Shown: piece by piece, positions 1 to 14,889 of the stretch
How the letters are laid out: the number at the start of each line of letters is the position of its first letter
How positions within the stretch are numbered: position 1 is the first letter of the stretch
Source of the DNA: Chromohalobacter nigrandesensis
Lineage (GTDB): Bacteria; Pseudomonadota; Gammaproteobacteria; Pseudomonadales; Halomonadaceae
NCBI RefSeq assembly: GCF_023061285.1
Contig: NZ_JAKGAM010000006.1
Span: 124,001 to 188,000, forward strand
Direction of reading: 5' to 3'
Length of the DNA: 64,000 bases
Notes under the pieces: generated by a model
What the model was told of the DNA's origin: nothing
Seen by the model: only the letters and a program-made list of their open reading frames with translations
Database searches by the model: none
Made by a program: the position numbers and the translations under genes

Positions 1-40
1 ACTCACACGTAATGAGGTAAGAGATAAGAAGTCCCGCCTT

Positions 41-65
41 GCCGCACCCACTGTGCGGCTTTTTT
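41..65 (+). terminator. Rho-independent terminator of an upstream gene
   Basis: A perfect 7-bp stem (GCCGCAC at 41-47, GTGCGGC at 53-59) with a 5-nt loop is followed by six T. It faces the + strand, so it ends a transcript entering from the left. An in-frame TAA at 10-12 could be the end of that gene, but too little is present to identify it. Confidence 0.85.
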
Positions 66-515
66 GCATACAGAGCATCCCTAGGCTAACAGAGGGCAGT
101 CCTGGTTAGTCTGGAAAATTCCTAGCACCGTCGCTTGCACAGGTACACCAGCTTCTTCTTGCAACCGTGCACCTTGATGTTAAGATATATTCACATTAGC
201 TTAACATCAAGCTGCCAAGCTAAAACCGATGGTCTCGGTATGACACCAAACGAAGTGTATCAAGCGTAGCTGTAAAAGCCTCGTACTCATAGCCTTCATA
301 GTGACTTCTTGGAACAAAGCAAACATCTGACGTCTATGCAGGATAAAGCGTTCAGCCACCCAATTACACTATCCGCAACATTTACTAAACAACCAGAATT
401 TTGCAGGCTTAGATACACCAGTAACGGATACCCCACACTCGGATGACAATGACAACCATATAAATTGGCTGTGAAGAGCAAGTTCAATAGACGCAAACTT
501 GGGACGCCACAAATC
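66..515. other. Intergenic region upstream of the lysR-type gene
   Basis: About 450 bases of AT-rich DNA with no convincing gene. Short minus-strand frames at 296-566 have no recognisable product or start signal. The only strong structure is the inverted repeat at 173-211. Promoters for the regulator are expected here, but I see no clean -35/-10 pair. Confidence 0.6.
173..211. repeat. 12-bp perfect inverted repeat, candidate operator
   Basis: CTTGATGTTAAG (173-184) and its exact reverse complement CTTAACATCAAG (200-211) are separated by 15 nt, giving a centre-to-centre spacing of 27 bp. There is no following T-run, so it is not a terminator. Its position about 300 bp upstream of a LysR-type gene suggests a regulator binding site, but that is inference. 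A recombination site is an alternative. Confidence 0.5.
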
Positions 516-1454
516 ATGGATCGCTTCACTGCTTTGAAAACGTTCTGCGCAGCTGTGGAGGCTCAAAGCTTTTCGCGTGCGGCGAATGACATTTGCCTGT
601 CTCGCTCGGCTGTGAGTAAGAACATACGTGAACTGGAAGAGTATTTAGGCGTCACGTTGATACAGCGCAGTACACGCGGTATCAGTGTGACTGAGGCTGG
701 CGCCAACTATTACGAAAAAGTCAGTCGGATGCTGACCAGCATGAAAGGTGCTGACGATGAGGTACGACAATCCAGTACGACCCCATGCGGAAACCTACGG
801 GTATCTGTGCCACTTTCCCTGGGTCTGTTGTACATCACACCCTTACTACCAACGTTCCTTGAGCGATACCCCGACATCTCAGTAGAGGTAGTGCTAACAG
901 ATAGCAAAGTCGACCTTCTCCAAGAAGGTTTTGATCTTGCTATACGTGGTATAAAACGTTTGGAAGACTCGTGCACTAGGTCACGACTGATTGGCGAATT
1001 CACTCACACCATATGTGCTTCGCCCGCTTATTTGGCTAGATGCACTGCCCCCATGTGTCCAAGTGACCTTCGACGTCATGACGTACTTATTTATACGGAA
1101 GTCGTGACCCCTGATCGCTGGAAGTTCGACAGCCCTACCAATGACGATCCAGATGAGTGCATCGTACAGGTCTCTGGAAGGTATCGATCAAATAACAGTC
1201 TCGCCTTGAGACAAGCAGCTATCGCAGGAAAAGGAATTCTTCGCATACCTGAGATCTATGTCAGAGATGACTTGGAGAAGGAGCGCTTGGTTCCCTTGCT
1301 CCAAGACTGGTCGCTTCCAACCACAGGAATTTGGGTAATTTACCCACAAACCTCTTTTATACCAAACAGGCTACGCGTATTTATTGACTTTTTAGCAGAT
1401 CATTTTTCAATGAGCACGCTTCCTTCCACACCTAATCACATCAGCATTACATAA
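516..1454 (+). CDS. LysR-family transcriptional regulator
   Basis: A 312-residue protein of typical LysR length. The N-terminal winged helix-turn-helix (about residues 1-60) starts MDRFTALKTFCAAVEAQSFS and includes SRAANDICLSRSAVSKNIRELE. An effector-binding domain of the periplasmic-binding-protein fold follows (about 90-295). I chose the ATG at 516 over an in-frame ATG at 465 because the family conventionally starts there and GGGA lies about 10 nt upstream. It is transcribed in the same direction as the biosynthetic genes and is separated from them by its own terminator, so it is probably their pathway regulator rather than an operon member. The effector is unknown. Base composition is AT-richer than the core genome. 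Confidence 0.85.
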   Translation: MDRFTALKTFCAAVEAQSFSRAANDICLSRSAVSKNIRELEEYLGVTLIQRSTRGISVTEAGANYYEKVSRMLTSMKGADDEVRQSSTTPCGNLRVSVPLSLGLLYITPLLPTFLERYPDISVEVVLTDSKVDLLQEGFDLAIRGIKRLEDSCTRSRLIGEFTHTICASPAYLARCTAPMCPSDLRRHDVLIYTEVVTPDRWKFDSPTNDDPDECIVQVSGRYRSNNSLALRQAAIAGKGILRIPEIYVRDDLEKERLVPLLQDWSLPTTGIWVIYPQTSFIPNRLRVFIDFLADHFSMSTLPSTPNHISIT

Positions 1455-1490
1455 ACTTTACATAGATTTTTCAGACATATTTCTTCATTA

Positions 1491-1521
1491 AGCCCGCAGC
1501 GTAATTGTGCGGGCTTTTTTT
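1491..1521 (+). terminator. Rho-independent terminator after the LysR gene
   Basis: AGCCCGCA (1491-1498) pairs with TGCGGGCT (1508-1515) around a 9-nt loop and runs into seven T (1515-1521). It isolates the regulator from the biosynthetic genes that start at 1671, so these need their own promoter between about 1522 and 1650. Confidence 0.9.
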
Positions 1522-1670
1522 ATATTCTTCGCCTCTCCTCATGTTGTGCACTGTCGGTAAACACAGTTCGCACTCAAATATATCTATCCTATCATTTCTC
1601 AGTCTAGTAACGTCTTGTAACGCAGCAATACGCTGTTTTTCCATAGTCGAACACAAGGTAAGAGACAGAC

Positions 1671-2357
1671 ATGAGCATTATCCAGGTTGCAGGAATCATC
1701 GACGCCAAAGAAGCTGACATGCTGATCAATGAAGGTGTGGATTGGCTAGGTTTTCCGCTACGTCTTCCTTCAGGGCGTGACGATATCAGCGAATCTGAAG
1801 CTACCTCTATTTTACAGTCATTGCCTAAACCACACAGGGGAGTTCTGATTAGCTATATGACTGAGGCTGACGAAGTATCCCGCTTCTGTGACCAGCTCTG
1901 TCTGGATGCTGTACAGCTGCATGGCGATATTTCCATGAAGGAGTTAGCCAAGCTGCGTGAGGCCCGCCCGGACCTTTATTTGCTCAAAAGCCTCGTTGTT
2001 CGCTCAGATAACCTGAACGGTCTCCTCCAGCTTATTGATGACAGCTCCGAATGGGTAGACATGTATATAACTGATACTTTCGACCCTATAACCGGGGCTA
2101 AAGGTGCCACTGGTATTACACATGACTGGTCAGTGAGCAAGGAATTGGTACGTCATTCTGAGCGCCCATTAATGATGGCTGGTGGTCTTTCTCCCGAAAA
2201 TATTGGTGAGGCTATACGAGAGGTTCAGCCTGCTGCCATCGACGCACACTCGCTATTGGAAGGGCCTGACGGGCGCAAGGACCGAAACAAGATCCGCCGC
2301 TTCGTTTCAGAGGCACGTGCAGCTTTTGATGAAATTGGTGCAACAACCCTAGTGTAA
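1671..2357 (+). CDS. TrpF-like (phosphoribosylanthranilate isomerase fold) protein lacking the catalytic Cys
   Basis: This 228-residue (beta/alpha)8 protein is recognisable from VQLHG, the GATGITHDW segment, RPLMMAGGLSPENI and the C-terminal phosphate-binding region with GRKDRNKI. TrpF normally begins with a [KV]xCG motif whose Cys is the general base. Here the segment is IIQVAGII, with Ala7 at that position. The general acid appears kept as Asp135 (in YITDTFDP), and PSGR keeps the family's early Arg. It is therefore unlikely to be an ordinary tryptophan enzyme. As the first gene of a cluster rich in ribose-5-phosphate chemistry it may act on, or merely bind, another phosphoribosyl compound. 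AAGGTAAG lies about 10 nt before the ATG. The next gene starts 13 nt downstream. Confidence 0.75.
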   Translation: MSIIQVAGIIDAKEADMLINEGVDWLGFPLRLPSGRDDISESEATSILQSLPKPHRGVLISYMTEADEVSRFCDQLCLDAVQLHGDISMKELAKLREARPDLYLLKSLVVRSDNLNGLLQLIDDSSEWVDMYITDTFDPITGAKGATGITHDWSVSKELVRHSERPLMMAGGLSPENIGEAIREVQPAAIDAHSLLEGPDGRKDRNKIRRFVSEARAAFDEIGATTLV

Positions 2358-2370
2358 CGGAGGCTTAATC

Positions 2371-3033
2371 ATGCCAGTTCATGTTTTGAACCAGACTAAG
2401 TCCTTAAAAGCCATACATTCGGTGATACGCCACCGTGATACCAGCCATTCACTGTTTGTCTTCCAGGCGAATCGGCTGATTCGTTTGATATTGGAAAAAT
2501 GTTTTGAGCTTTTGCCCTATCAGCCTTACGAGGTAAGAACGCCTATCGGCGAACTGTACGAAGGACAACAAGTTAGCAAGCCTCTTTGTGCTGTTTCTGT
2601 CGTTAGAGCGGGAGAGAGCATGGAATATGCCCTTTCATCGATTCTGGCGGGCTTTCCTATCGGGAAGATCTTAATCCAGCGGAATAAGGTGACAAAGCTT
2701 CCTCACCTCTACTACGCCGCTTTTCCTGAAGATATTGCTGATCGATATGTGCTTCTTTTGGAACCCATGCTAGCCACAGGGGGATCGGCGATAATGGCTG
2801 TGCGTGAACTCCTTGAACGTGGCGTCCCAGAACATAACATCATTTTTGCGAACGTTCTTACCTCACCAGAAGGGTTAGCGAGACTCGAGTCAACCTATCC
2901 AAACCTGACTATCGTGACTTCTTCGGTCGAGAAACGACTGAACGAAGAGGCCTTTATGGTACCGGGCATTGGGGACTTTGGTGACAGGTACTTTGGCACA
3001 ACGAGACAAGGGGCCGCTCATGGACAGGCATAA
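2371..3033 (+). CDS. Uracil phosphoribosyltransferase
   Basis: A 220-residue UPRTase (uracil + PRPP to UMP + PPi). The PRPP-binding loop is LLLEPMLATGGSA (Glu131 to Ser139 region), and the uracil-recognition tail VPGIGDFGDRYFGT sits near the C-terminus. The N-terminal part (about 1-60) is longer than a minimal PRTase and includes VVRAGESM, as in UPRTases. It lies 13 nt after the TrpF-like gene and overlaps the exporter gene by 14 nt. In the minimycin cluster a UPRTase (MinD) protects the producer by enlarging the UMP pool. I infer the same role here rather than housekeeping salvage, given the operon position. A salvage gene elsewhere on the chromosome cannot be seen. Confidence 0.85.
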   Translation: MPVHVLNQTKSLKAIHSVIRHRDTSHSLFVFQANRLIRLILEKCFELLPYQPYEVRTPIGELYEGQQVSKPLCAVSVVRAGESMEYALSSILAGFPIGKILIQRNKVTKLPHLYYAAFPEDIADRYVLLLEPMLATGGSAIMAVRELLERGVPEHNIIFANVLTSPEGLARLESTYPNLTIVTSSVEKRLNEEAFMVPGIGDFGDRYFGTTRQGAAHGQA

Positions 3034-3919
3034 TATTGTCCTGAATATCTTTTTGACCTCATTGGTTCCTATTGTCTGGGGCAGCACATATCTGGTGACC
3101 ACGGAGTTTTTGCCTCCCGATGCGCCTTTGCTAGCTGCGGTGCTTCGCGCGTTACCGGCCGGCCTCATCCTCATTGCTTTCGGGCGCCAGCTGCCGACAG
3201 GTGGCTGGTGGGTCCGGGCGGCACTGTTGGGCGTACTGAACATAGGAGCCTTCTTCTATTTTTTGTTCGTCGCAGCCTATCACCTCCCTGGAGGGGTAGC
3301 TGCACTGATCATGTCCATCCAGCCAATCATTGTACTGCTTTATGGAGTAGTACTGTTTGGCAACGCCATTACTGCCACGCAGGTACTGGCCTGTGTGCTG
3401 GCGGCAGTCGGTGTGGCTCTAGTAGTGCTCAGGCCTGAAGCTGAATTGAACGTCGTTGGCGTAACAGCTGGCCTTGGGGGGGCATTGTCCATGGCGACGG
3501 GCATCGTCCTTACTAAGCGCTGGGGCCGTCCCGCCGGAACCAGCCTATTAACGTTCACAGGCTGGCAACTGGCCTTCGGAGGCGCCGCATTACTGCCGAT
3601 CGCCCTCGTCTATGAAGGCCTCCCTCCGGTCCTCACAGTACGTAACTGGCTGGGTCTGGGTTACCTCGGGTTGTTTGGAGCTCTCGCCGCCTATGCGCTG
3701 TGGTTCCGTGGCATTGAGCGCCTGCCGGCTTTATCCGTGTCTTTCATCTCTCTCCTGAGCCCCCTCTCCGCGACATTGCTGGGGTACTGGTTCCTCAATG
3801 AGCAATTGAATTGGTTGCAATTGCTGGGAGGTGTCGGGGTGCTCGGTGCGGTATTCCTCGCGCAGCCCCATATAAACCTTTTTGCCCGTTTTCAACGTCC
3901 GAGGCACGGAGAGGCCTGA
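3020..3919 (+). CDS. EamA/DMT-family transporter (candidate product exporter)
   Basis: A 299-residue, ten-helix inner-membrane protein made of two EamA repeats. The first starts at VPIVWGSTYLVTTEFLPPD and the second about residue 145. The ATG at 3020 is preferred over 2969 because it gives the standard EamA N-terminus. It overlaps the end of the UPRTase gene by 14 nt, so translation is probably coupled. Members export amino acids, purines, drugs or other small metabolites, and several natural-product clusters use one for efflux and self-protection. The substrate here is inferred from context only. Confidence 0.8.
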   Translation: MDRHNIVLNIFLTSLVPIVWGSTYLVTTEFLPPDAPLLAAVLRALPAGLILIAFGRQLPTGGWWVRAALLGVLNIGAFFYFLFVAAYHLPGGVAALIMSIQPIIVLLYGVVLFGNAITATQVLACVLAAVGVALVVLRPEAELNVVGVTAGLGGALSMATGIVLTKRWGRPAGTSLLTFTGWQLAFGGAALLPIALVYEGLPPVLTVRNWLGLGYLGLFGALAAYALWFRGIERLPALSVSFISLLSPLSATLLGYWFLNEQLNWLQLLGGVGVLGAVFLAQPHINLFARFQRPRHGEA

Positions 3920-3964
3920 ACCCCATCTGCACACGTCTTTAAACTGATCAGCAAGGGTATTCCC

Positions 3965-6900
3965 ATGGCTTTGAACACGCAGCTTCCTTCCCATGACATT
4001 CCTACAACCTTGGACACGCTTTCCGGCATGCTTGCCTGGCAGGCCCGTACAAGGCCGGACGTGCCAGCGGTGATCTCTGACGATACCCAGGTAAGCATGG
4101 CCGATCTCGCTTCGACCGCGGGCAGTATTGCCAAGGGGATTCTCTCTAGCGCGCCAGGCGTCAGCGAGTGTCTGGGACTCTATGCCGATCCTTCGCCGGA
4201 AATGATCTCTGGTCTCTGGGGTATTCTCTGGGCTGGCCGTGCCTATCTTCCGCTGGCCGTTGAATACCCTGAGGAACGTATTCGTTACATCGTCGAGCAC
4301 AGCGGTACCAACACCATCCTCACCCAGGCTCATCTAAAAGCCCAGCTACAAAGGATGGTGCCGCACACTACCCAGGTACTGGTGCTCGAAGAGCTCCTGC
4401 GAGAACCAGCGAGTGAGGCTGCGACATGCACTTTGGAGGACCTTGGCTACGTAATTTACACGTCCGGAAGTACAGGTAAGCCGAAAGGTGTCATGATCAG
4501 CCAAGAGGCCGTGGTCAACCAGTTGCGTTGGCTGTCCCGTCAAGCTTACCTAAGACCTGGCGTCAGAATCCTGCAAAAAACACCGGTCAGCTTCGATGCT
4601 GCACAGTGGGAATTACTCGCGCCAGCCGTCGGTGCAGCGGTGGTGTCAGGCCGACCAGGTATGTTCCGTGACGCGCATGCCATCATCTCCAGTATCCAGC
4701 GTCACAGTGTGGCCAATCTCCAATGCGTTCCCACCCTGCTCAGTGCGCTTGTCGAAGACGAGACATTCTTGAACTGTACAAGCCTCTCGACACTGTTTTC
4801 CGGTGGCGAAGCACTTTCTCAGAAGCTGGCACGCAAGGTGCTCACCTCGATGCCTCACGTCGATCTTGTCAATCTGTATGGACCGACGGAATGCACGATC
4901 AATGCGACATCGCATCATGTCTGTGTAGATGAATTAACCGACCTGTCCTGCGCGGTATCAATCGGCACACCCGTCGATGGGGTAACTTGCCATATCCTGG
5001 ATTCGCAGATGAATCACGTTCCCGACGGAGAGGAAGGTGAGCTCTATCTTGGCGGGATTCAGCTAGCCAAAGGGTATCGCAACAGTACCGAACTAACCCG
5101 GGAACGCTTTGTTTTTCTACCCGGGGCTCCACAGCAACGTTTGTACCGGACGGGGGATATCTGTTCCCGGCAAGCCGACGGCACCCTACGCTTTGCTGGG
5201 CGTTCTGATCATCAGGTAAAGCTGCGGGGTTATCGCGTTGAACTTGAGGAAATCATCGTAGCAATCGAAGCTCATCTCTGGGTCCGCCATGCGTCGGTGG
5301 TGGTCCTTGAAGACGAGCGAACCAAGGGGCAATCGCTGACGGCTTGCATCGAGCTGAACGATAAAGAAGCTGCATTGATGGACCAAGGGGTCGCCGGCAG
5401 TCACCACCAATCCAAGGCGAACAAACTTCAGGTGAAGGCTCAGCTGGCCAACCCGGGCCTTCGTGATGATCTTTCTCTCGCCTCATCGGCGGTTACATCG
5501 CTGCCCGGCTCACAGCCCTTCGACGAGCAACGACGGAAGGTCTTCGCCCGGAAAACCTATCGTTTCTATGACGGCGGCATCACGACCCGGGACGAGCTGG
5601 CAGAGTTGATCAGCGACTGGCAACGCCAGATGGCGAGTCCCAAGGACATGCAGCTACCCTGTGAATGGGATATCGCCCTGTTGAGCGACCTGCTTCGTTG
5701 GTTCGGCAGCTTCCAGAGTGAAGCCCGACTTCTCCCCAAATATGCCTATGCATCCCCGGGAGCGCTATACGCCACTCAGCTCTACGTAGAGTGTGCCGGC
5801 ATCCCAGGTGTTGAGGATGGAATCCACTACTATCATCCCTTACGACACACCCTGATTCGTGTGGCCAGCCCTTTCTCGGCCATTCAGGAAGACGGGCCTC
5901 GTCAGCTACGTTTCCACTTCGCGGGCAAGCGAAAGGCCATAGAGCCGGTCTACAAGAACAACATTAGAGAAGTCCTGGAGATCGAAACGGGACACATGCT
6001 GGGACTGCTCGATGAAGTACTGATCAAGGATGGTCACAGTGTTACGCCCGCGCCTCGCCATGAATATCTGTTAGCGCACCTTGGTCTCCAACGTGACGAC
6101 TTTGACCTTGGAAGTTTTGCCTGTGTCCCAGCAGGACGAGGTTGGAGGCCGAATGTCGAGTTATATGTCCAGTCGACGGGCCTTGGGACGGAGGGCCTAG
6201 AGCCCGGGACCTGGAAGATCATGAGAAACGAGCGGAAGCTGATTTCGAACAATGCCATTGCGTCACGAGACGTCATCGCAATCAACCAGCAAGTTTTCAA
6301 TCGCTCAAGCGTCGGCCTATCGATCCTGAGCCGCGAACAGGATGCGTCATTAGGCTATGTGGCGCTGGGCTATGCACTGCACAAGTTCCAGCGTAATGAG
6401 CACGGCTTTGGCTTCATGTCATCGGGCTACAGTTCTAAATCGGGCAACCCATTACCCGCTGCTCGCCGATTTGACGGGATTCTTCACGAAGCGGGCATCG
6501 AATCTGGCCCGATGTACTTCTTCATAGGCGGCAAGGTCAGCGAGGCACAGCGGCTTAGCGAAGGCATGCATGAAGACAGCGTTCACATGCAAGGCCCCGC
6601 AGAGATGATCCGCGATGAACTGGCGAGAAGCCTCCCTGATTATATGATACCCGACAGAGTTCTCGTCTTTGACAGGCTCCCCCTCTCGGCCAACGGGAAA
6701 GTCGATCACAAAGCAGTCGCCGCCTCGGATCAGTTACGCGAGGCCGTCGCTGCTAAACCCTATAAGGAGCCTGATTCACCGACCGAGCGCTGGCTAGCAA
6801 CCCTTTGGTCCGACTTGTTGGATTTTGATCCCGTTTCGCGTGAGGACGAGTTCTTCCTGTCGGGTGGCAATTCCCTGGTTGCGATATCGATGCTTGCCTC

Positions 6901-7867
6901 GATCAATAAGCATTTCGGTCTGAACCTCCCCGCCCAGGTGGTTTTCGAGTGCCCGAAGCTAAGTGAACTAGCGACTCGCATTGATGAGGGTATGGCCACC
7001 CCATCTTCGCGCCTGATTCCGCTGAACGATAAAACAGACGCCTACCCCATATTCTGCTGGCCTGGGTTGGGCGGGTATCCGATGAACCTTCGCCCACTGG
7101 CCCAAACTCAGGCCCGTCCATTCATCGGTATCCAGTGTTATGGACTCAATGAGGGTGAGACACCTTACTCAACGATCGCAGAGATGGCCCGGGCGGATGT
7201 CGAGGAAATCCAGCATAAGCAGCCGAGCGGTCCCATAACGCTATGGGGGTATTCTTTCGGCGCCCGGCTGGCATTCGAGGCTGCTTGGCAGCTGGAACAA
7301 GCAGGCAGACAAATTGACCACCTGGTCCTGATCTGCCCAGGGAACCCTCATGTTGATACCGGGGTGGTGACAGAACAACGTGATGCGAATCTGAGCAATC
7401 TGGGCTTCGCTGCGATTCTCCTATCTGTCTTCTTTGGCAAGGTCGACATCGAAGAGACCAAGCGCTGTATGGCTCAGTGTGCCAACCTTGAGGCCTTCAT
7501 CCGTTACGTGCACACACGACGCCCTGAAGTAGGCGTAGATACCGTGAGGCGCATTACCCAGCTCGTCTGTGAGACCTATGAGTTTGAGTATAACTTCGCT
7601 GAATTCAAAGTCCACCGGGTGTCGGCACCCATCGATATCGTGAAAGCCCAAGGGGACGACTACTCGTTTCTGGAAAATGCCAGCAGTTATGCCGCGGCGG
7701 CCCCGCGCGTCCTGTATTCGGCAAGCGACCATTACCAAATCCTTCGAGATGGCCCTGTTCGTGAGCTTGCCGGCATGCTCACCCGCGCAGGCCAACCCCC
7801 GCAGGGTTTCGAGGAAACCTCCACAACCTCGGCTTCACAGCGGGAGGTAAGCCATGCCGCACATTGA
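3965..7867 (+). CDS. Single-module NRPS, A-Ox-T-TE, indigoidine synthetase (IndC/BpsA/MinA) type
   Basis: At 1300 residues this is close to BpsA (about 1280). The adenylation domain starts about residue 25, with A3 YTSGSTGKPKG at 165, YGPTE, YRTGD and A8 at QVKLRGYRVELEE. An FMN-dependent oxidase (nitroreductase/McbC-like) of about 340 residues (about 530-870) is inserted between A8 and the terminal A10 motif LPLSANGKVD (about 905-915), the hallmark of blue-pigment synthetases. The carrier domain follows with phosphopantetheine Ser970 (GGNSL), then a thioesterase with GYSFG (Ser1097) and a late His1256. Aligning by eye to the GrsA pocket gives D-A-W-Q-F-G-L-I-N, consistent with L-glutamine activation. 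Expected chemistry: activate, oxidise and cyclise glutamine to an aminopyridinedione-type unit that either dimerises to indigoidine or feeds C-nucleoside formation. No phosphopantetheinyl transferase is nearby. Confidence 0.93.
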   Translation: MALNTQLPSHDIPTTLDTLSGMLAWQARTRPDVPAVISDDTQVSMADLASTAGSIAKGILSSAPGVSECLGLYADPSPEMISGLWGILWAGRAYLPLAVEYPEERIRYIVEHSGTNTILTQAHLKAQLQRMVPHTTQVLVLEELLREPASEAATCTLEDLGYVIYTSGSTGKPKGVMISQEAVVNQLRWLSRQAYLRPGVRILQKTPVSFDAAQWELLAPAVGAAVVSGRPGMFRDAHAIISSIQRHSVANLQCVPTLLSALVEDETFLNCTSLSTLFSGGEALSQKLARKVLTSMPHVDLVNLYGPTECTINATSHHVCVDELTDLSCAVSIGTPVDGVTCHILDSQMNHVPDGEEGELYLGGIQLAKGYRNSTELTRERFVFLPGAPQQRLYRTGDICSRQADGTLRFAGRSDHQVKLRGYRVELEEIIVAIEAHLWVRHASVVVLEDERTKGQSLTACIELNDKEAALMDQGVAGSHHQSKANKLQVKAQLANPGLRDDLSLASSAVTSLPGSQPFDEQRRKVFARKTYRFYDGGITTRDELAELISDWQRQMASPKDMQLPCEWDIALLSDLLRWFGSFQSEARLLPKYAYASPGALYATQLYVECAGIPGVEDGIHYYHPLRHTLIRVASPFSAIQEDGPRQLRFHFAGKRKAIEPVYKNNIREVLEIETGHMLGLLDEVLIKDGHSVTPAPRHEYLLAHLGLQRDDFDLGSFACVPAGRGWRPNVELYVQSTGLGTEGLEPGTWKIMRNERKLISNNAIASRDVIAINQQVFNRSSVGLSILSREQDASLGYVALGYALHKFQRNEHGFGFMSSGYSSKSGNPLPAARRFDGILHEAGIESGPMYFFIGGKVSEAQRLSEGMHEDSVHMQGPAEMIRDELARSLPDYMIPDRVLVFDRLPLSANGKVDHKAVAASDQLREAVAAKPYKEPDSPTERWLATLWSDLLDFDPVSREDEFFLSGGNSLVAISMLASINKHFGLNLPAQVVFECPKLSELATRIDEGMATPSSRLIPLNDKTDAYPIFCWPGLGGYPMNLRPLAQTQARPFIGIQCYGLNEGETPYSTIAEMARADVEEIQHKQPSGPITLWGYSFGARLAFEAAWQLEQAGRQIDHLVLICPGNPHVDTGVVTEQRDANLSNLGFAAILLSVFFGKVDIEETKRCMAQCANLEAFIRYVHTRRPEVGVDTVRRITQLVCETYEFEYNFAEFKVHRVSAPIDIVKAQGDDYSFLENASSYAAAAPRVLYSASDHYQILRDGPVRELAGMLTRAGQPPQGFEETSTTSASQREVSHAAH

Positions 7868-8090
7868 ACTGAGCCACTTCCCGGTCGAGCTCACTCACGC
7901 AGAAAAAGAGGCCTTGGCCACAGATCTAACACGGGTGGTGTGCGACAGGCTTAAAACACCCTCGTCCGTAGTGTCGATTGTCCTGGAGCCAGTCACGCCC
8001 GAGCAGTGGCATGACCGAGTGATCGCTCCGAGGCTGCTACCTGCCGGGAGTCGGCTTATCAAGAAACCGAACTACCCCATTAAGGAATGA
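7854..8090 (+). CDS. 4-oxalocrotonate tautomerase-family protein
   Basis: A 78-residue protein with Met-Pro at the N-terminus. After Met removal, Pro1 would be the catalytic base of the tautomerase superfamily. The sequence [14 protein letters not shown] followed by an amphipathic helix ([13 protein letters not shown]) and a beta strand ([11 protein letters not shown]) fits the family, slightly longer than classic 62-residue 4-OT. It overlaps the NRPS stop by 14 nt and is followed directly by the glycosidase gene, so it is an integral cluster member. A keto-enol or dione isomerisation of the NRPS product is a reasonable inference. I recall no such gene in the standard indABC set. Confidence 0.75.
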
Positions 8091-8092
8091 AC

Positions 8093-9037
8093 ATGCGTTA
8101 CGTGACCACACATGGCGATATCCCATTAACGTTCAATGAAGAAGTCGCTGACGCGCTGGCCGGTAATCGTCCTGTCGTGGCGTTGGAATCCAACGTCATT
8201 ACCCACGGTTTGCGATATCCACTGAACATAGAGACGGCCCTGGCCGTGGAGAATGCGGTTAGACGGGGTGGGGCTGTTCCAGCAACGATTTTCATCGATG
8301 AAGGTAAGATCCTGGTAGGGTCTGATCAGGATCGGATTGAACGATTCGCTTCCCTTGAGTCCGTGCCGAAGGTATCAAGCCGCGACCTGCCTGTCGCGCT
8401 TGCTAAAGGCGGGCCCGGTGCTACCACGGTCGCCTCTTCCCTGGTCTGTGCGGAACTGGCGGGGGTCGAAGTTTTTTCCTCAGCGGGCATCGGCGGTGTG
8501 CACCGCGGCGCAGAACGCAGCATGGATATCTCAGCAGATCTGGTGCAGTTCACGCGCTCGCGTGTCGCCGTGGTCTGTGCCGGCGCCAAAAGCATACTGG
8601 ACCTGGAGTTAACGCTTGAGTTTCTCGAAACACATTGCGTGCCGTTGCTCTCTTACCGCTCGGATGATTTCCCCGCTTTCTTTTGCGACAGCAGTGGCTT
8701 GCGTAGCCCCAACCGTATAGATGACCTACCCACCCTAGCCCGTGCAATCCTGGCTCATTGGGCCAGCGGCGCCCCGGGTGGCCCCGTCATCACGACACCA
8801 CCTCGCCCCGAGGATGCACTGCCTCGCGCCGAGGTCGAAAGCGTTATCACCGATGCACTTCAGCGTGCTGAGACTGAGCAGATTTCCGGCAATGGCCTGA
8901 CGAAGTTCCTGATGCGTGCCATTGAGCAGGCAACAGAAGGACGCTCTGCCCAGGCCAATGCCGCCGTGCTGGTTAGTACGGCTGAGCTTGCCGGCGAAGT
9001 CGCCGCCTCACTACAACGCGAATCTACCTTTGTTTAA
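8093..9037 (+). CDS. indA: Pseudouridine-5'-phosphate glycosidase-like C-glycosidase (IndA/MinB type)
   Basis: A 314-residue PsuG/IndA-family enzyme. Active-site residues are in place: Glu32 in [11 protein letters not shown], Asp145 in MDISADL and Lys166 in [18 protein letters not shown]. PsuG reversibly makes or breaks the C-C bond between ribose 5-phosphate and uracil. Homologues in the minimycin/oxazinomycin and showdomycin pathways are assigned to C-glycoside formation with glutamine-derived heterocycles. IndA sits beside indigoidine synthetase in many bacteria. I prefer ATG 8093 over ATG 8087 because AAGGA (8082-8086) is correctly spaced from the former and abuts the latter. The tautomerase stop lies 2 nt upstream. 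Confidence 0.9.
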
Positions 9038-9046
9038 GGATCCAAG

Positions 9047-10141
9047 ATGACCCGTTCAATCGCTTTCACCCCGGCACGCTTCGGTGCGATAGACGTTGCA
9101 AACCGGTTTGTCATGGCTCCCATGTCACGCAATCGTGCCACACCCGAGGGCCTTGCAACGCCATTGATGGCCGAATATTACGCCCAGAGGGCCACGGCAG
9201 GCTTGATCGTGACCGAGGGTGTACAGCCCAGCGCCGTAGGACAAGGGTTCATGAATACACCAGGCCTGCATAGTGAAGCGCAAATAACAGCGTGGCGTCA
9301 GGTGACCGAGGCCGTCCATGCCAAGGGAGGCAAGATTGTTGTTCAGCTAATGCACGCTGGACGCATTGGGCATCCCTCCCTCTACCCTGACCGACATGCT
9401 TCAATTGCGCCCTCAGCGATTGCTGCACAAGATCAGGCCTTCACTCCCGAAGGTCCCAAGGATTACCCGACGCCTCGTGCCATGTCTGAGGCTGATATCA
9501 ATCAGGCGATCGCTGAGCATGCCCAGGCTGCCCGAAATGCCATGGAGGCAGGCTTCGACGGCATTGAGATCCATGCCGGTAATGGCTTTCTAATCCATCA
9601 ATTCATGGCAGAAAACTGCAATCAGCGCACTGATGGCTATGGTCGCGACATTAAGGGGCGTGTTCGCTTTGCCCTGGAGGTGATTGACGCTTGCGTTCAG
9701 GCCATCGGCGCCAGGCGTGTTGGGGTAAGAATTTCCCCATGTAATCCTTTTAACGACATCATTGAAGGAAATACCCCAGAACTCTACAAGGCGCTCCTGG
9801 AGCGTATACCGGAGGACCTGGCTTACCTACATATTATGGAAGCCAATAACCGGCCGCAGACAGAGGCCATCAGGGCGATGTGGCGCGGTCCGCTCATCCT
9901 GAACCCGCATGCGGATGCCACCGCCTGGCCGGCCACTCCAAGCATACTAAAAACCCTCTTCGATACGGACCTCGCCGACGGGGTCTGCTTCGGCGCCCTA
10001 TTCCTGGCCAACCCAGACCTGGTCTCTCGGATTCGCCTGTCAGCTCCATTAAACAGCGTGGATGAAACTACCTTCTATGGGGGAGGTGCCCGAGGCTATA
10101 CCGACTACCCGACTCTGGAGCAGTGCGCATCCATTGCCTGA
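9047..10141 (+). CDS. Old Yellow Enzyme-family flavin oxidoreductase, catalytic Tyr replaced by Phe
   Basis: A 364-residue OYE (FMN TIM barrel) similar to NemA/XenB ene-reductases: PMSRNRA near the N-terminus, QLMHAGRIGHPS, and the active-site segment IHAGNGFLIHQF. The His176/Asn179 pair that binds the substrate carbonyl or nitro group is kept. The residue two after Asn, normally the Tyr proton donor (HxxNGY), is Phe181. The downstream loop reads RISPCNPFND, where the family usually has SP followed by a more hydrophobic run. It starts 9 nt after the glycosidase, with AAGGA overlapping that stop codon. A role on an unsaturated dione or imide in the cluster is inferred. Loss of the Tyr suggests altered protonation or a non-reductive role. 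Confidence 0.85.
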   Translation: MTRSIAFTPARFGAIDVANRFVMAPMSRNRATPEGLATPLMAEYYAQRATAGLIVTEGVQPSAVGQGFMNTPGLHSEAQITAWRQVTEAVHAKGGKIVVQLMHAGRIGHPSLYPDRHASIAPSAIAAQDQAFTPEGPKDYPTPRAMSEADINQAIAEHAQAARNAMEAGFDGIEIHAGNGFLIHQFMAENCNQRTDGYGRDIKGRVRFALEVIDACVQAIGARRVGVRISPCNPFNDIIEGNTPELYKALLERIPEDLAYLHIMEANNRPQTEAIRAMWRGPLILNPHADATAWPATPSILKTLFDTDLADGVCFGALFLANPDLVSRIRLSAPLNSVDETTFYGGGARGYTDYPTLEQCASIA

Positions 10142-10151
10142 TCCCCAGTGC

Positions 10152-10179
10152 CTTCGGCGGCATCGTCAAGACGCCGAAG
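10152..10179. other. Hairpin between the OYE gene and the FAD protein gene
   Basis: CTTCGGCG (10152-10159) and CGCCGAAG (10172-10179) form an 8-bp stem with a 12-nt loop but no T-run follows. It may slow or stabilise the transcript and so set apart the last two genes. It is not a convincing intrinsic terminator. Confidence 0.5.
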
Positions 10180-10260
10180 AATGAACCGCAGCCGTGAGCT
10201 AGGCGACCTGTCCCATAAACAGGCAGGTTGCCCTCGTGCAGCCGAAAAAGGATTAGGCTG

Positions 10261-11706
10261 ATGCATGATGTTGCAATCGTTGGTTTTGGTGCGACTGGGG
10301 TCAGTTTCCTCCGCCAGCTGCATTCCCATTTGTATGAGCAGGATTTAGATCCGATCCGTGTTGCCCTGGTTTCGCCTGAGGAAAGCTTTTCGTCTGGGCT
10401 AGCCTTTGGACAGGCTGAATATTTTCACAAGGTGAACACGCCACCCGAGCTAATGGGAATCGACCCAGAAGACCCACAAGGGTTTGCCACGTGGATGCGT
10501 CAGCAGAGAGGACAGGAGGACCCGTACCCACCACGCGTGACGTATTCAGATTACCTGAAGTATATCTATCGGACCTTGGCCGGCGACAAACTTGCAATCA
10601 CTGAGTTTCACACCCACGCCAGCGATATCGATACACATACTGCCTACCAAGTTATTCGGCTTAACGATGGGCGCGAGGTCATGACGCGAAGGACCGTGCT
10701 TGCTCTAGGGTCTGTTTCCGCACCAACATTCAACACTGCCTCGGGCATGAATCCGGTACAACCCAGAGAGATTGCCTATACGCGGGCCCCCGAATGCGCG
10801 TTGGTCGCAGGGACAGGGCTAACGGCAGTGGACTGTGTCCGATCGCTGGCTCGACTGGGAACCCAGTCAATACACATGTTTTCACGTAGCGGGTTTGCGC
10901 CCACGGTAATCTCGAAAGGCGTGTCCTACCACCCTGAGCACTTCATCTGGGACAAGTTAAAGGCCGAGTTGAGCCGGCATCCTCGTGAGACGCGGCTGCC
11001 CAGTGTTATTAAATTGCTCAAAGCCGAGATAAAACAGATGCCTAATCCGGAAGTCCCTCGAGCCAACAGGTTCCTGTTGAAGGGGAATCTCAAGTCCTAT
11101 TGGGGTTACCTGTTATCACGCGCTGACAACGCCGATCTCCCTTTTCAGGATACGTTAGGCTCGACTCGATTCTATGCCCACAAGATTTGGCGCAAGCTTG
11201 GAGAACGAGAGCGTCAGGACTTTCAACGTAGCTTCGGGTCGTTCTGGGCATGCTGGCGGCATCCGATACCTGCCGATATTGTCAGAGAGCTTCAGCAGTA
11301 CGCAAAAGAGGGTCGTTTGCATTTGCATCGCCCGGTGGCGCCCATCAAACGCCAAAGAGGGCAGTATATACTTGAGACCAAAGACACGCGCATACTTGCC
11401 AACATCCTGATCGATGGAACCGGTGGCTCAGGCGACATGCAGCAAGTCTCTTCTCCACTTGTCCGAAATTTGTTGAACAAACAGTTGGCGATTGCTCATC
11501 CCTGCGGCGGCCTGAGAGTCGACTCCCTAACCTATGGATTAGAGAACGACACTCGATCCACAGGAATCTATTGTCTTGGACCATTGGCCAAAGGAGTACT
11601 TTTTTCTACTAATGCCTTCTGGTTCAATGCACAGTGCGCCTCCCAGTTAGCCTATTACTTGGCCATCGAGATTCGCCTCGAACCGCATGGGGAGGTTGTT
11701 ACTTAA
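10261..11706 (+). CDS. FAD/NAD(P)-binding protein (NAD_binding_9-like)
   Basis: A 481-residue protein starting with a Rossmann dinucleotide-binding motif (VAIVGFGATGVSF, Gly-x-Gly-x-x-Gly). A second nucleotide-binding stretch occurs at about residue 180 (ALVAGTGLTAVDCVRSL). A late IYCLGPLAKGVLF segment is typical of the FAD-binding end. It resembles the broad FAD/NAD(P)-binding, YdhS-like family, whose members are mostly uncharacterised. The ATG at 10261 is chosen over 10228 because AAAAAGGA lies about 9 nt upstream and the Rossmann strand begins at residue 4. It overlaps the AEC gene by one base (TAATG). A role in oxidising or reducing a cluster intermediate is plausible, but substrate and reaction are unknown. 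Confidence 0.7.
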   Translation: MHDVAIVGFGATGVSFLRQLHSHLYEQDLDPIRVALVSPEESFSSGLAFGQAEYFHKVNTPPELMGIDPEDPQGFATWMRQQRGQEDPYPPRVTYSDYLKYIYRTLAGDKLAITEFHTHASDIDTHTAYQVIRLNDGREVMTRRTVLALGSVSAPTFNTASGMNPVQPREIAYTRAPECALVAGTGLTAVDCVRSLARLGTQSIHMFSRSGFAPTVISKGVSYHPEHFIWDKLKAELSRHPRETRLPSVIKLLKAEIKQMPNPEVPRANRFLLKGNLKSYWGYLLSRADNADLPFQDTLGSTRFYAHKIWRKLGERERQDFQRSFGSFWACWRHPIPADIVRELQQYAKEGRLHLHRPVAPIKRQRGQYILETKDTRILANILIDGTGGSGDMQQVSSPLVRNLLNKQLAIAHPCGGLRVDSLTYGLENDTRSTGIYCLGPLAKGVLFSTNAFWFNAQCASQLAYYLAIEIRLEPHGEVVT

Positions 11707-12578
11707 TGTCCATTCTCATACCTCTAGCCTATTTACTTATCGGCGTCCTGCTAGGGCGCTTTTTGCCCGAAATAAAAAATATCTTGGCGAAAGCGCTGAC
11801 CAAAATTTTCATCCCGTTAGTCATCATATACAACCTGCTAGCCTACCAAGCCGGTACGGCTTTGCTGGCGCTATTCAGTGTCGCCTTTTGTTCGCTGCTG
11901 TTCGTTTGTGGGCTTGTGCTCTGGAAGAACCGGTTGACGGCCCTGACATTGAGTTATCTCAATGTAGGGTGGCTAGGACTGCCAATCGCTATAGCCCTTT
12001 TTGGCGATGAGGCCAGCCACATAATAATTGCAGCCTACGTAGGTAGCTCGATCTTCGGAAACATAGCGTCGTCATTGGCATTACAGTCCGACATGCCATG
12101 GCGTGGGTTGTTTTATCGCATCGTCAGGATGCCGCCGGTAATGGCGGTGATTGTAGGCCTGGCATTGCATGTCTTGCCGCTGCACCTGGCACAGAATGAA
12201 TACCTCAGCATTCTCTATGAAGTTGCCAAGCAAATGATGTCCTTGGCTGGCATGGGTGTTTTAGGTATCTGGCTGTACAACTCCAAAGTATCGCTGCAGA
12301 GCTTACGAGAATCCATTCCGCACGCCATTGTCAGAGCCGTAGTGGGAACCAGCATGGTCGCCTTATTTATCGTAGGTTGCCGAAGTCTAGGTTACGACCT
12401 CTTTCCAGACAGTATCTGGGCACTTGCCTTATTGCCTCTTCTTCCCCCAGCAGCCAATATCGTAGTGCTTGAAACCTACTATTGTGGCACGGGAAATTCC
12501 GCGCAAACGATAGTCTGTGGAACGGTAGTTTCTCTTGTATTGATATTTGTTTTTTCTTTTATACTCATGGAGATTTAA
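11706..12578 (+). CDS. AEC (auxin efflux carrier) family transporter
   Basis: A 290-residue, roughly ten-helix inner-membrane protein (MSILIPLAYLLIGVLLGRFLPE, then repeated hydrophobic segments), the usual AEC size and layout. The ATG at 11706 shares one base with the preceding stop and avoids a 24-residue non-membrane extension from 11634. AEC proteins move small organic anions or weakly acidic compounds. In this cluster it could be a second exporter or a precursor or product importer. Specificity cannot be read from sequence. Confidence 0.75.
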   Translation: MSILIPLAYLLIGVLLGRFLPEIKNILAKALTKIFIPLVIIYNLLAYQAGTALLALFSVAFCSLLFVCGLVLWKNRLTALTLSYLNVGWLGLPIAIALFGDEASHIIIAAYVGSSIFGNIASSLALQSDMPWRGLFYRIVRMPPVMAVIVGLALHVLPLHLAQNEYLSILYEVAKQMMSLAGMGVLGIWLYNSKVSLQSLRESIPHAIVRAVVGTSMVALFIVGCRSLGYDLFPDSIWALALLPLLPPAANIVVLETYYCGTGNSAQTIVCGTVVSLVLIFVFSFILMEI

Positions 12579-12628
12579 CGATCATTCCAAGGCCCGCGCA
12601 AAGGCTTGGACACCAAAAACCTACCCTC

Positions 12629-12655
12629 GTCCCTCGGATGGCGATAGGGACTTTT
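12629..12655 (+). terminator. Weak terminator-like hairpin after the AEC gene
   Basis: GTCCCT (12629-12634) and AGGGAC (12646-12651) form a 6-bp stem followed by four T. It lies in the 75-nt gap between the AEC gene and the convergent tilS, and the T-run overlaps the tilS stop codon. It could end the accessory operon. The short stem keeps confidence low. Confidence 0.4.
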
Positions 12656-13952
12656 AACCACCCTTGGCGGGCATCGCTCGCAGCCGCCAGCCTTCGGCGG
12701 CGGCGATGCCCAGCACCCCGACCAGGATATCGCCTTCCCAGGCCAGCCACAGACGCTCACGCTGCCACGGCGGCACATGGCGTTCCTGCAGCACACGCTT
12801 GAGATCGCGCCGCCCGCGCCCTGGCAGACGTAGCGCCTCGCCACCCTGACGCAAACGCAGCGTGAGACTGACATCACGCGGAGGATCGGGAAGCAGTTGC
12901 CACGCCAGCGGACCCAGCGGGGTCTCCAGGGGCGCGCGGCCATCCCAGGTCAGGAAGGGATCCGCCACCGGTGGTGCGTCCAGCGGTGCCAGCAGATAGA
13001 GATGCCCTCGCCAGCGCCTGGCCTGCGCGCCCGACCAGTCGATATGGACCTGGGCATCGTCGCGGGCCTGCAATTGATCGAGCAAGCTTTCGAGGCGCGC
13101 GCGCGGTGGCGTGGGCAGGGAGAGTCGCCGACAGGCATGGCGTACCAGCAGACGCTGGCGGGGCCGGGAGAGTGACGCGATGCTCGCGACCGGCAAGCAG
13201 GCCGCCTCGCCCCCCAGCGCCTGCAAGGTTTCTGCGGCCAGCTCTTCCAGCAGCGCATCGCTCTCGCCCAGTTGCTCGGCGGTGCGTGCCAGCGATGTTG
13301 CCGCGCCCGGCCAGCGTGCCGCCAGCGCCGGCATGACCGTGTGGCGCAGATAGTTGCGATCAAAGCGCTCATCGGCGTTGGACGGGTCCTCGACCCAACG
13401 CAGGTCACGTGTCGCGGCTTCGCGTTCCAGCGTCACGCGCGTTACGGACAGCCACGGCCGGACCATGAAACGCCCCTGCCACTCGCGTCTCTCAGGCATG
13501 CCCGCCATGCCGCGCAGCCCGCTACCGCGCAGTCCCGCCAGCAGCAGGCCTTCGGCCTGATCGTCGGCATGCTGCGCCAATAGCAGTGTGTCTCCCGGTG
13601 CGACACGGCGCGCATACGCCGCAAGCCGCGCCTCACGGGCGTGTGCCTCGAGACCTCGCTCACCGTGTACCACCGTGACACGCTCGACGTAAAGCGGCAC
13701 GCCGAGGCGTGAACAAAGCACCCGGCAATGCCGCTCGAAATCCTCGGCAGCCGGCTGCAGGTCATGATTGACATGCACCGCATAGAGCGGCCGTGGATGA
13801 CAGCGACATGACGCCACCGCCAGCGTCAGCATCAATGAGGAATCCAGGCCACCGGACAGCGCCACCCAAACGCAACGCCCCGGCGAGGTCGTCGCCAGGG
13901 CGTCGTCGACAAGGGCGTCAGGGGAAGACGATGCGTTATTGGGGAGCGCCAT
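12654..13952 (-). CDS. tilS: tRNA(Ile)-lysidine synthase
   Basis: This 432-residue enzyme modifies C34 of tRNA-Ile(CAU) to lysidine with ATP and lysine, so that the tRNA reads AUA. The PP-loop SGGLDS is at residues 33-38. [22 protein letters not shown], the tRNA-recognition region and a C-terminal TilS domain with [21 protein letters not shown] follow. Its start overlaps the accA stop by 17 nt, so it is the last gene of the minus-strand run. Its 3' end is the junction with the lower-GC accessory block. Confidence 0.95.
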
Positions 13953-14889
13953 AGCTCATCAGACGCTCATAACGCCGCGACAGCAGGGCATCTGTCTCCA
14001 TGGCTTCCAGCCGCTCGAGGCTCGCGCCCAGTGCGTCCTTGATGCTATCGGCCATCTTCTGCGGATTGCGATGCGCGCCCCCCAGCGGTTCCTTGATCAG
14101 GGTATCGACGAAGCCCAGCTCCTTGAGGCGCTCGGCGGTAATACCCATCGCCTGCGCCGCCTCGGAGGCCTTTTCGGCGCTCTTCCACAGGATCGACGCG
14201 CAACCTTCCGGGGAAATCACCGCATAGGTCGAATACTGCAGCATCTGCAGCTCATCGCAGACACCAATCGCCAGTGCTCCGCCGGAGCCACCCTCACCCA
14301 CGACGGTGGAAATGATCGGCGTCTTGAGCCGCGACATGACCGCCAGATTATAGGCGATGGCCTCGCTCTGGCCGCGCTCCTCGGCGTCGATCCCGGGATA
14401 GGCGCCGGGGGTATCGATAAAGGTCAGTACCGGCATCTTGAAGCGCTCGGCCATTTCCATCAGCCGACACGCCTTGCGATAGCCTTCCGGGCGCGGCATA
14501 CCGAAGTTGCGTCGCACCTTCTCCTTGACGTCACGCCCCTTCTGATGACCGATGACCATCACCGGCTTGTCGTCGAGGCGCGCCACGCCGCCCACGATGG
14601 CGGCGTCATCGGCGAAATGACGATCGCCATGCAGTTCGTCGAAGTCCTCGAACAGGCTATCGAGGTAATCCAGCGTGTAGGGACGCTGGGGATGACGCGA
14701 GAGCTGCGATACCTGCCAGGCGCTAAGATCGCGAAAAATCGATTCGGTGAGCTTGCGATTCTTGTCTTCAAGCTTGCCGATTTCGTCGCTCAAGCTGATA
14801 CGGCTGTCGTTACCGACCAGGCGTAGCTCATCGATCTTGGCTTCCAGCTCGGCGATCGGCTGTTCAAAGTCCAGGTAGTTGGGATTCAT
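13936..14889 (-). CDS. accA: Acetyl-CoA carboxylase carboxyltransferase subunit alpha
   Basis: A 317-residue subunit that, with AccD, transfers CO2 from carboxybiotin to acetyl-CoA to make malonyl-CoA. Recognisable segments are [19 protein letters not shown], the crotonase-fold core [22 protein letters not shown] and [14 protein letters not shown]. The start at 14889 is chosen because upstream in-frame codons encode a non-conserved arginine-rich stretch. It lies between dnaE and tilS, as in many gammaproteobacteria. Confidence 0.96.

Follow-up and report, generated by a model that had tools for sequence, protein, structure and literature searches.

We have analysed a stretch of 64,000 nucleotides from Chromohalobacter nigrandesensis (contig NZ_JAKGAM010000006.1, positions 124,001 to 188,000; here called the window), which contains a cluster of seven genes around a single-module non-ribosomal peptide synthetase (NRPS) of the indigoidine-synthase type. 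The cluster lies in an acquired island whose probable role is to convert glutamine into a blue-pigment precursor, which may in turn be joined to ribose. We propose that the locus encodes a C-nucleotide or C-nucleoside pathway that departs from indigoidine synthesis and leads to something other than minimycin, a proposal to which we would give a probability of roughly 0.42. The PsuG-bearing relatives of indigoidine clusters read here fall into two mutually exclusive classes, one with a TrpF-like protein and one with a HAD phosphatase, and the window, which has TrpF-like, uracil phosphoribosyltransferase (UPRTase) and PsuG genes beside its NRPS with an Ox domain (Ox-NRPS) and neither a HAD phosphatase nor a questin oxidase (DUF4243) gene, fits the first of these. 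A concrete prediction is that the TrpF class as a whole does not end in minimycin.

The source genome (GCF_023061285.1) comprises 3.64 Mb in 50 contigs, and families were assigned from Pfam and NCBIfam profile matches. The core of the cluster (1671-10141) is made up of the following genes:

1671..2357, + strand: TrpF-like (phosphoribosylanthranilate isomerase, PRAI) TIM barrel with QVAG in place of KICG (PRAI/TrpF match, 2.8e-22)
2371..3033, + strand: UPRTase homologue of the MinD class (PF14681, 1.3e-70)
3014..3919, + strand: EamA/DMT exporter (PF00892, 3.8e-38)
3965..7867, + strand: single-module NRPS with domains A-Ox-T-TE, of the IndC/BpsA/MinA type (AMP-binding, PP-binding and thioesterase matches; specificity code DAWQFGLINK)
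7854..8090, + strand: 4-oxalocrotonate-tautomerase-like protein of 78 amino acids with Pro at position 2 (PF01361 at 5.9e-4, just below the Pfam cut-off, and alignment)
8087..9037, + strand: putative C-glycosynthase of the PsuG/IndA/MinB class (PF04227, Indigoidine_A, 4e-106; residues intact)
9047..10141, + strand: flavin reductase of the Old Yellow Enzyme (OYE) family, NemA-like (PF00724, Oxidored_FMN, 3.9e-72)

All the open reading frames named in an initial annotation of this DNA, made from the sequence alone, were located on the + strand between 1671 and 12578. The same annotation had described an overlapping set of genes, which is true of UPRTase/EamA, NRPS/tautomerase and tautomerase/PsuG (and of two further genes, encoding a FAD protein and a membrane protein, if a longer start is used) and not of the others. 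The best NCBIfam model for the OYE is N-ethylmaleimide reductase, with a score below the cut-off of that model, and a second UPRTase, separate from the cluster copy, lies elsewhere in the genome.

The two classes emerge from a profile scan of genome contigs with an Ox alignment, which gave 186 relatives; the best 80 of these 186, those most like the window Ox domain, were kept, and plasmid loci were added, namely 11 of 37 records chosen for spread and five further records. Five near-copies (L010, L011, L012, L057 and L092) were dropped before the count and L007 was excluded as having no Ox match, and the resulting table of 92 distinct loci is not a random sample. A gene was taken as present when tblastn gave more than 120 bits (45-50 bits for the tautomerase), and the loci were placed on a tree of the Ox domain; several of the loci read in this work are truncated by a contig end, above all L077 and, from the separate draw described below, L116, both of which lack the side where TrpF would lie. 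A PsuG homologue was found in 31 of the 92 loci: 25 of these have the TrpF-like gene and no HAD phosphatase, five have a HAD phosphatase and no TrpF-like gene, none has both and one (L077, a 5.7-kb contig) has neither. DUF4243 accompanies the HAD phosphatase in four of the five (L079, L082, L087 and L099), the fifth being L074. Every one of the 25 TrpF-like genes is accompanied by both PsuG and UPRTase, so that in this neighbourhood search the association with UPRTase and TrpF-like genes, for which the initial annotation had suggested a search, is not random.

A separate draw of 394 Actinomycetes genomes contained an Ox-NRPS in 14 genomes at 15 places, 14 of which were read; six have PsuG, three of them of the TrpF type (the same as L051, L056 and L061) and three new ones of the HAD type, again with none carrying both. 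Two of the new HAD-type loci (L117 and L118) are whole and the third is L116. Combined, there are 34 distinct PsuG loci, with 25 of the TrpF type, eight of the HAD type (one cut short), none with both and one with neither (cut short). Within the 92 loci EamA occurs in 15 of the 25 TrpF-type members; the OYE occurs in 10 of these 25 and is missing from all 67 other loci. Across the combined PsuG loci, genes for phosphoribosyl pyrophosphate (PRPP) synthetase were found in 9/25 of the TrpF type compared with 0/8 of the HAD type. On the NRPS (Ox) tree the TrpF label requires eight changes, and since at least six of these changes are forced by well-supported branches the pattern is not that of one clade copied. 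One locus counted among those with none of these genes, L062, retains EamA and a weak piece of UPRTase; as its neighbours on the tree are TrpF-type loci, it may be what is left of a cluster of that type. Ox-NRPS genes were found in only one of 274 Gammaproteobacteria genomes and one of 398 Pseudomonadota genomes, in both cases the present one.

The order TrpF, UPRTase, EamA, NRPS, tautomerase, PsuG, OYE is shared by the window, Chromohalobacter marismortui, Amylibacter (L013), Epibacterium ulvae (L029), Agrobacterium vitis CG78 (L093) and Streptomyces chumphonensis (L046), which again argues against a chance arrangement. In E. ulvae U95 the seven genes have a LysR gene upstream and the TrpF-like protein is 70% identical to that of the window; this cluster differs in having no FAD/membrane-protein pair and in coming from a reported indigoidine producer. 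A second TrpF-type form, without OYE and in some cases with PRPP synthetase, occurs in Microbispora, Glycomyces and others. Plasmid pSA3239 of Streptomyces lavendulae CCM 3239 (L008) has all seven genes, but here and in its relatives the NRPS comes last and a PRPP synthetase is added, pSA3239 itself also having a SARP regulator. On plasmid pET44827 of Corynebacterium aurimucosum ATCC 700975 (L009), TrpF-like (49.5% identical to the window protein), UPRTase, Ox-NRPS, tautomerase, PsuG and EamA genes form one run, which differs from the window in that EamA follows PsuG, OYE is lacking and there is a MarR/PecS-like regulator. In A. vitis CG957 (L007:17973-22111) the place of the NRPS is held by UdgX, radical-SAM genes, an IS481 transposase and a piece of an alpha/beta hydrolase, and no Ox match remains, the copy in A. 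vitis CG78 being intact.

By sequence the TrpF-like protein is a TrpF barrel; its AlphaFold2 model has a pLDDT of 92 and its 12 best matches in the PDB are all PRAI chains. Compared with a housekeeping TrpF (PDB 1lbm) the fold is alike (Foldseek E 5.5e-16, TMt 0.89), and the acid Asp and the AGGL motif are common to both. However, all 31 TrpF-like cluster copies (28 distinct) have QVAG where TrpF has KICG, that is, the catalytic Cys has become Ala, and KICG is present in all three housekeeping TrpFs compared (this genome, C. marismortui and E. ulvae). In alignment the TrpF-like copies retain the acid Asp and the AGGL phosphate-site motif, although they differ from housekeeping TrpF in that the V-S/G-G phosphate loop reads AH(S/T) and there is an extra loop, TGAKGATG. 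In TrpF catalysis the Cys acts as the base and the Asp as the acid. Ordinary Amadori isomerisation is thus unlikely, because the base Cys is Ala in every copy, and judged by its residues the family still has what is needed for binding a phosphoribosyl compound and for pushing on its ring oxygen, whereas the means for the normal second step are gone. It does not appear to be a duplicate tryptophan enzyme, since a housekeeping trpF is present in this genome, in C. marismortui and in E. ulvae. Two actinomycetes that were searched gave no PF00697 match beyond the TrpF-like gene, which fits the use of PriA in those organisms.

A speculative extension, which we hold to be somewhat doubtful, is that the Cys-less barrel is a new C-nucleotide enzyme that opens the furanose of a phosphoribosylated aminopyridine-dione with the acid Asp alone, its substrate being either an N-nucleotide from the UPRTase or a C-nucleotide from PsuG, so that the ribose would migrate from N to C or the ribosyl moiety be remodelled. 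It would yield a family of C-nucleosides that horizontal transfer has carried through Proteobacteria and Actinomycetota. Should the product be a C-nucleoside, the TrpF-like protein would be a new use of a textbook enzyme fold and the strains bearing the cluster would be sources of an unknown class of antibiotic.

The NRPS has the A-Ox-T-TE architecture noted in the initial annotation, with the Ox domain nested within the A domain (approximately amino acids 458-885) and aligning with the Ox domains of S. lavendulae and C. aurimucosum. The Ox motifs RKTYR, LLPKY.YASPG and GFMSSGYSS..GNPLP are common to the window NRPS and the three other enzymes aligned. Its ten-letter specificity code, at positions set by motif patterns that follow GrsA numbering, is DAWQFGLINK, and because this matches the code given for L-Gln in Streptomyces albus (PMC3992020) a glutamine-specific NRPS, as had been predicted, is supported. 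In the wider code table two of the ten letters are unresolved in 15 of 32 TrpF-type rows, and these rows include repeats of the same locus.

All 14 aligned tautomerase copies have Pro at position 2, and existing annotation calls the corresponding genes of L008, L009 and L093 tautomerase. On this alignment we take the protein to be a stand-alone counterpart of the Tau domain of MinA. The PsuG homologue has the catalytic Glu, Asp and Lys intact in an alignment with Escherichia coli PsuG, as the initial annotation had noted. It is also the sole PF04227 gene in the genome, which argues against a catabolic psuG among further copies; no search was made for psuK.

In Streptomyces hygroscopicus JCM 4712 minimycin is made by MinA, which includes the Tau domain, MinB and MinC, a HAD phosphatase joined to DUF4243, and self-resistance is provided by MinD (a UPRTase), the phosphatase domain of MinC and MinT (PMC8724604). 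The window resembles this min system in having a Gln-type A-Ox-T-TE NRPS, a tautomerase function, a C-glycosynthase of the PsuG class, a UPRTase and a transporter, a likeness at the level of classes that is taken from a review description of min. It differs from min in that there is no MinC equivalent, a Cys-less TrpF-like protein and an OYE being found instead, and in that the tautomerase is a separate gene. No MinC-type HAD phosphatase was found in the window cluster, and elsewhere in the genome there are three matches to generic HAD phosphatases, one with an internal stop. Questin oxidase (DUF4243, PF14027) had no match in the cluster or the whole genome, nor in C. marismortui or E. ulvae; S. 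chumphonensis has one weak PF14027 match (28.7 bits), away from its cluster. Minimycin by the known route is therefore excluded, because the genome lacks questin oxidase, and the minimycin-like character first ascribed to the locus extends to the NRPS, tautomerase, PsuG, UPRTase and transporter classes but not to the HAD phosphatase of the cluster or the questin oxidase.

Gene content, residues, the mutual exclusion of TrpF-like and HAD genes, the lack of questin oxidase and the island are seen directly in the sequences, whereas every reaction in the pathway that we propose is one that we infer. The NRPS would load L-Gln, the TE domain would cyclise it and the Ox domain would oxidise it to an aminopyridine-dione, which otherwise dimerises to indigoidine; this first step is suggested by the domains and the code, and the chemistry is known for IdgS, BpsA and MinA. 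The tautomerase, by analogy with the MinA Tau domain, would present the right tautomer. The PsuG homologue, its residues being intact, would then form a C-C bond to ribose 5-phosphate, as proposed for MinB. The TrpF-like barrel could act on the phosphoribosylated intermediate, either by acid-assisted opening and re-closure of the furanose or by handing an open-chain ribosyl adduct to PsuG, and would so stand in the place of the min-type HAD phosphatase and questin oxidase. The OYE, going by its family, might reduce an unsaturated cyclic imide or keep it reduced, with less loss to the blue dimer. Finally, by analogy with the proposals for MinD and MinT, the UPRTase may protect and EamA may export, and generic HAD phosphatases of the host could dephosphorylate the product. 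The most likely product would thus be a C-nucleotide or C-nucleoside derived from the precursor of indigoidine and other than minimycin, with some indigoidine as a by-product, plain indigoidine being the main rival.

Parts of this gene set have been described before in single genomes. Plasmid pET44827 was described in 2010 as having an IndA-like gene, an IndC-like NRPS, a protein with a phosphoribosyltransferase domain and a TrpF homologue, and was associated with a black pigment; its authors considered that the phosphoribosyltransferase-domain protein and the TrpF homologue (orf19/20) possibly activate the NRPS (PMC2830990). The TrpF homologue is thus not the unfamiliar extra that the initial annotation took it for. 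Nor do all of the five genes that it placed outside known sets belong there, the tautomerase corresponding to a domain of MinA (PMC8724604) and to a gene of S. albus (PMC3992020). The TrpF-type class as such had no account in the titles and abstract openings of the literature searched, subscription papers being mostly outside that search, and its recurrence, its exclusion of HAD/DUF4243 and the loss of the TrpF Cys were not found described there. Loci filed under indigoidine (E. ulvae and S. lavendulae pSA3239) or under black pigment (C. aurimucosum) belong to the TrpF class, and one locus of that class, in E. ulvae, is linked to an antibacterial, colourless E. coli clone. This is fosmid 19F10 (JX523956), which carries the E. 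ulvae NRPS gene and which was antibacterial and not blue, its authors suspecting a product other than indigoidine (PMC3564156). The published accounts of this fosmid disagree: a 2019 paper has it harbouring the indigoidine cluster (PMC7989816), whereas the earlier one has other indigoidine genes absent from it (PMC3564156). Antinematodal activity likewise is present in the 2019 text (PMC7989816) and given as a minus in Table 1 of PMC3564156.

Several points weigh against a C-nucleotide or C-nucleoside pathway. The cluster has no dedicated phosphatase, so that a nucleoside would need a host HAD enzyme, for which the three generic matches are the candidates, and ribose has been shown in no product of a TrpF-type cluster. 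The places of the window, L009 and L013 on the Ox tree are unsure, these being on long branches. Phylogeny-corrected pairs for TrpF and PsuG are one-directional (4-5 of 6, none opposite) but not significant (median p 0.125), and those for TrpF and UPRTase (5-6 of 6, p 0.0625) are also not significant in the median. Across 24 TrpF-type loci protein distances correlate more strongly between PsuG and the NRPS (Spearman 0.97) than between PsuG and TrpF (0.78), so that to some extent the TrpF-like gene may have moved independently. The extract of E. ulvae U95 was blue and its HPLC/MS peaks were assigned to indigoidine (PMC7989816), the genes on S. lavendulae pSA3239 have been called indigoidine genes (PMC10409956), and C. 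aurimucosum has a black pigment (PMC2830990). The authors of the 19F10 study wrote that other genes needed for indigoidine are absent from the fosmid (PMC3564156); it may thus not hold the whole cluster, other genes on it could explain the antibacterial activity, and the E. coli clone may have failed to turn blue only because its NRPS was poorly activated. The caveat weakens the case for a C-nucleoside and raises that for plain indigoidine. The C-nucleoside proposed in the initial annotation stands as the best inference from the locus, and indigoidine is reported from E. ulvae with the same gene set.

The strongest alternative, and one that we regard as a real possibility, is that this is an indigoidine pigment cluster in which PsuG, UPRTase, the TrpF-like protein and the OYE are accessory, with roles in repair, in flux or in protecting the cell against by-products, for example ribosylated adducts. 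The peaks from E. ulvae and the naming of the pSA3239 genes agree with it, as does the statement that an IndC-type NRPS is the sole activity that the blue pigment needs (PMC3992020). However, the NRPS often occurs without the module, 60 of the 92 loci having no PsuG, TrpF, HAD or DUF4243 within the sequence read (which in some cases is truncated at a contig end), whereas TrpF, UPRTase and PsuG remain associated in 25/25 loci from two phyla, and the antibacterial activity of fosmid 19F10 without blue colour, subject to the caveats above, is also not what it would lead one to expect (PMC3564156).

There are also pigments of the indigoidine type that carry ribose, namely the indochromes of Arthrobacter. 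The locus could make a ribosylated, water-soluble pigment, blue or black, with PsuG ribosylating the monomer before dimerisation, which we consider unlikely. A PsuG homologue with intact residues does lie beside an IndC-type NRPS, and the pigment tied to the C. aurimucosum plasmid with its TrpF-type set is black and not blue (PMC2830990), but the E. ulvae peaks were assigned to plain indigoidine (PMC7989816). An azaindole formed by PsuG and TrpF was also considered and rejected, because the amine does not lie next to the coupling position. That the locus makes minimycin (oxazinomycin) after all, with the missing steps supplied from elsewhere in the genome, is highly improbable, for although five of its gene classes match the min cluster (PMC8724604) and generic HAD phosphatases are present, neither this genome nor C. 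marismortui has a PF14027 match and TrpF-like and HAD genes occur together in 0/34 PsuG loci.

Around the core are the following features:

465..1454, + strand: LysR-type regulator, the probable cluster regulator (PF03466/PF00126; a 45% identical LysR lies directly upstream of the TrpF-like gene in E. ulvae L029)
10228..11706, + strand: FAD/NAD(P)-binding protein, a companion and not core (NAD_binding_9, 3.9e-25; start probably at 10261)
11634..12578, + strand: membrane protein paired with the FAD gene (no Pfam match; start may be at 11703)
1..12667, no strand: the part of the acquired island inside the window; the island extends a further 2.24 kb or so to the left, to about 15757 in L129

The genes at 1671-12578 had been presented as the extent of the locus and they are there, but the island begins about 2.2 kb before the window. 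In all three cluster-free congeners read (L124, L125 and L126) the two flanks are 30-42 bp apart, the left flank ending near the end of ppx (identified by Pfam) and the right flank beginning at the end of tilS (window 12667-12670), which indicates an insertion of about 14.9 kb that ends at 12667 and has its left end some 2.24 kb outside the window. The GC content per kb is 46-59% in the island and 59-68% in the flanks. Among ten Chromohalobacter genomes the TrpF-like gene (E below 1e-20) occurs in two, this one and C. marismortui; C. marismortui DSM 6770 (L012/L123), the closest named relative compared, has 96.1% DNA identity over window positions 1-14570. The two carrier species share 97-100% identity in each protein from LysR to FAD, with 83% for the last protein of the island, while TilS is only 80% identical, and this sequence comparison points to a recent exchange of the island between Chromohalobacter species.

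The FAD and membrane-protein genes had been counted among the extras of the cluster, but they form a separate pair, which stands adjacent without an NRPS in the stretches read of two other Halomonadaceae genera (L127 and L128), with 60-62% and 50-55% identity. The FAD gene was not found in any examined NRPS locus other than those of the two Chromohalobacter genomes. For these reasons the pair was rejected as core, which is limited to 1671-10141, and is taken to be a companion that may still have a role in this island. The label AEC that the initial annotation gave to the membrane protein finds no support in Pfam.

To the left of the window the island (L129:15809-18013) has a MarR-type regulator, a divergent second EamA-type transporter and a nitroreductase. 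The MarR shares 34% identity with the one that lies next to the cluster of C. aurimucosum, and the transporter has no significant BLASTP similarity to the cluster EamA. The MarR/EamA pair is reminiscent of PecS/PecM of Dickeya.

Other Ox-NRPS loci in the survey show further arrangements. L117 and L118 (Actinomycetes) and L074 (Polyangium) have PsuG, a HAD phosphatase and a UPRTase by the Ox-NRPS, with no DUF4243 or TrpF found, and are candidates for a simply ribosylated product. L100 and L112 have DUF4243/questin oxidase beside the Ox-NRPS with no PsuG match, L112 also having a cysteine-synthase-like gene, which suggests another use of questin oxidase. Three actinomycete Ox-NRPS loci (L109, L111 and L114) have an arylmalonate-decarboxylase-like gene, as in the igi type of Leisingera. 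Lastly, two Rhizobium plasmids (L096 and L103, one of them named Ti) carry a divergent Ox-NRPS, one of which is annotated as indigoidine synthase, together with a transporter, cysteine synthase and serine O-acetyltransferase.

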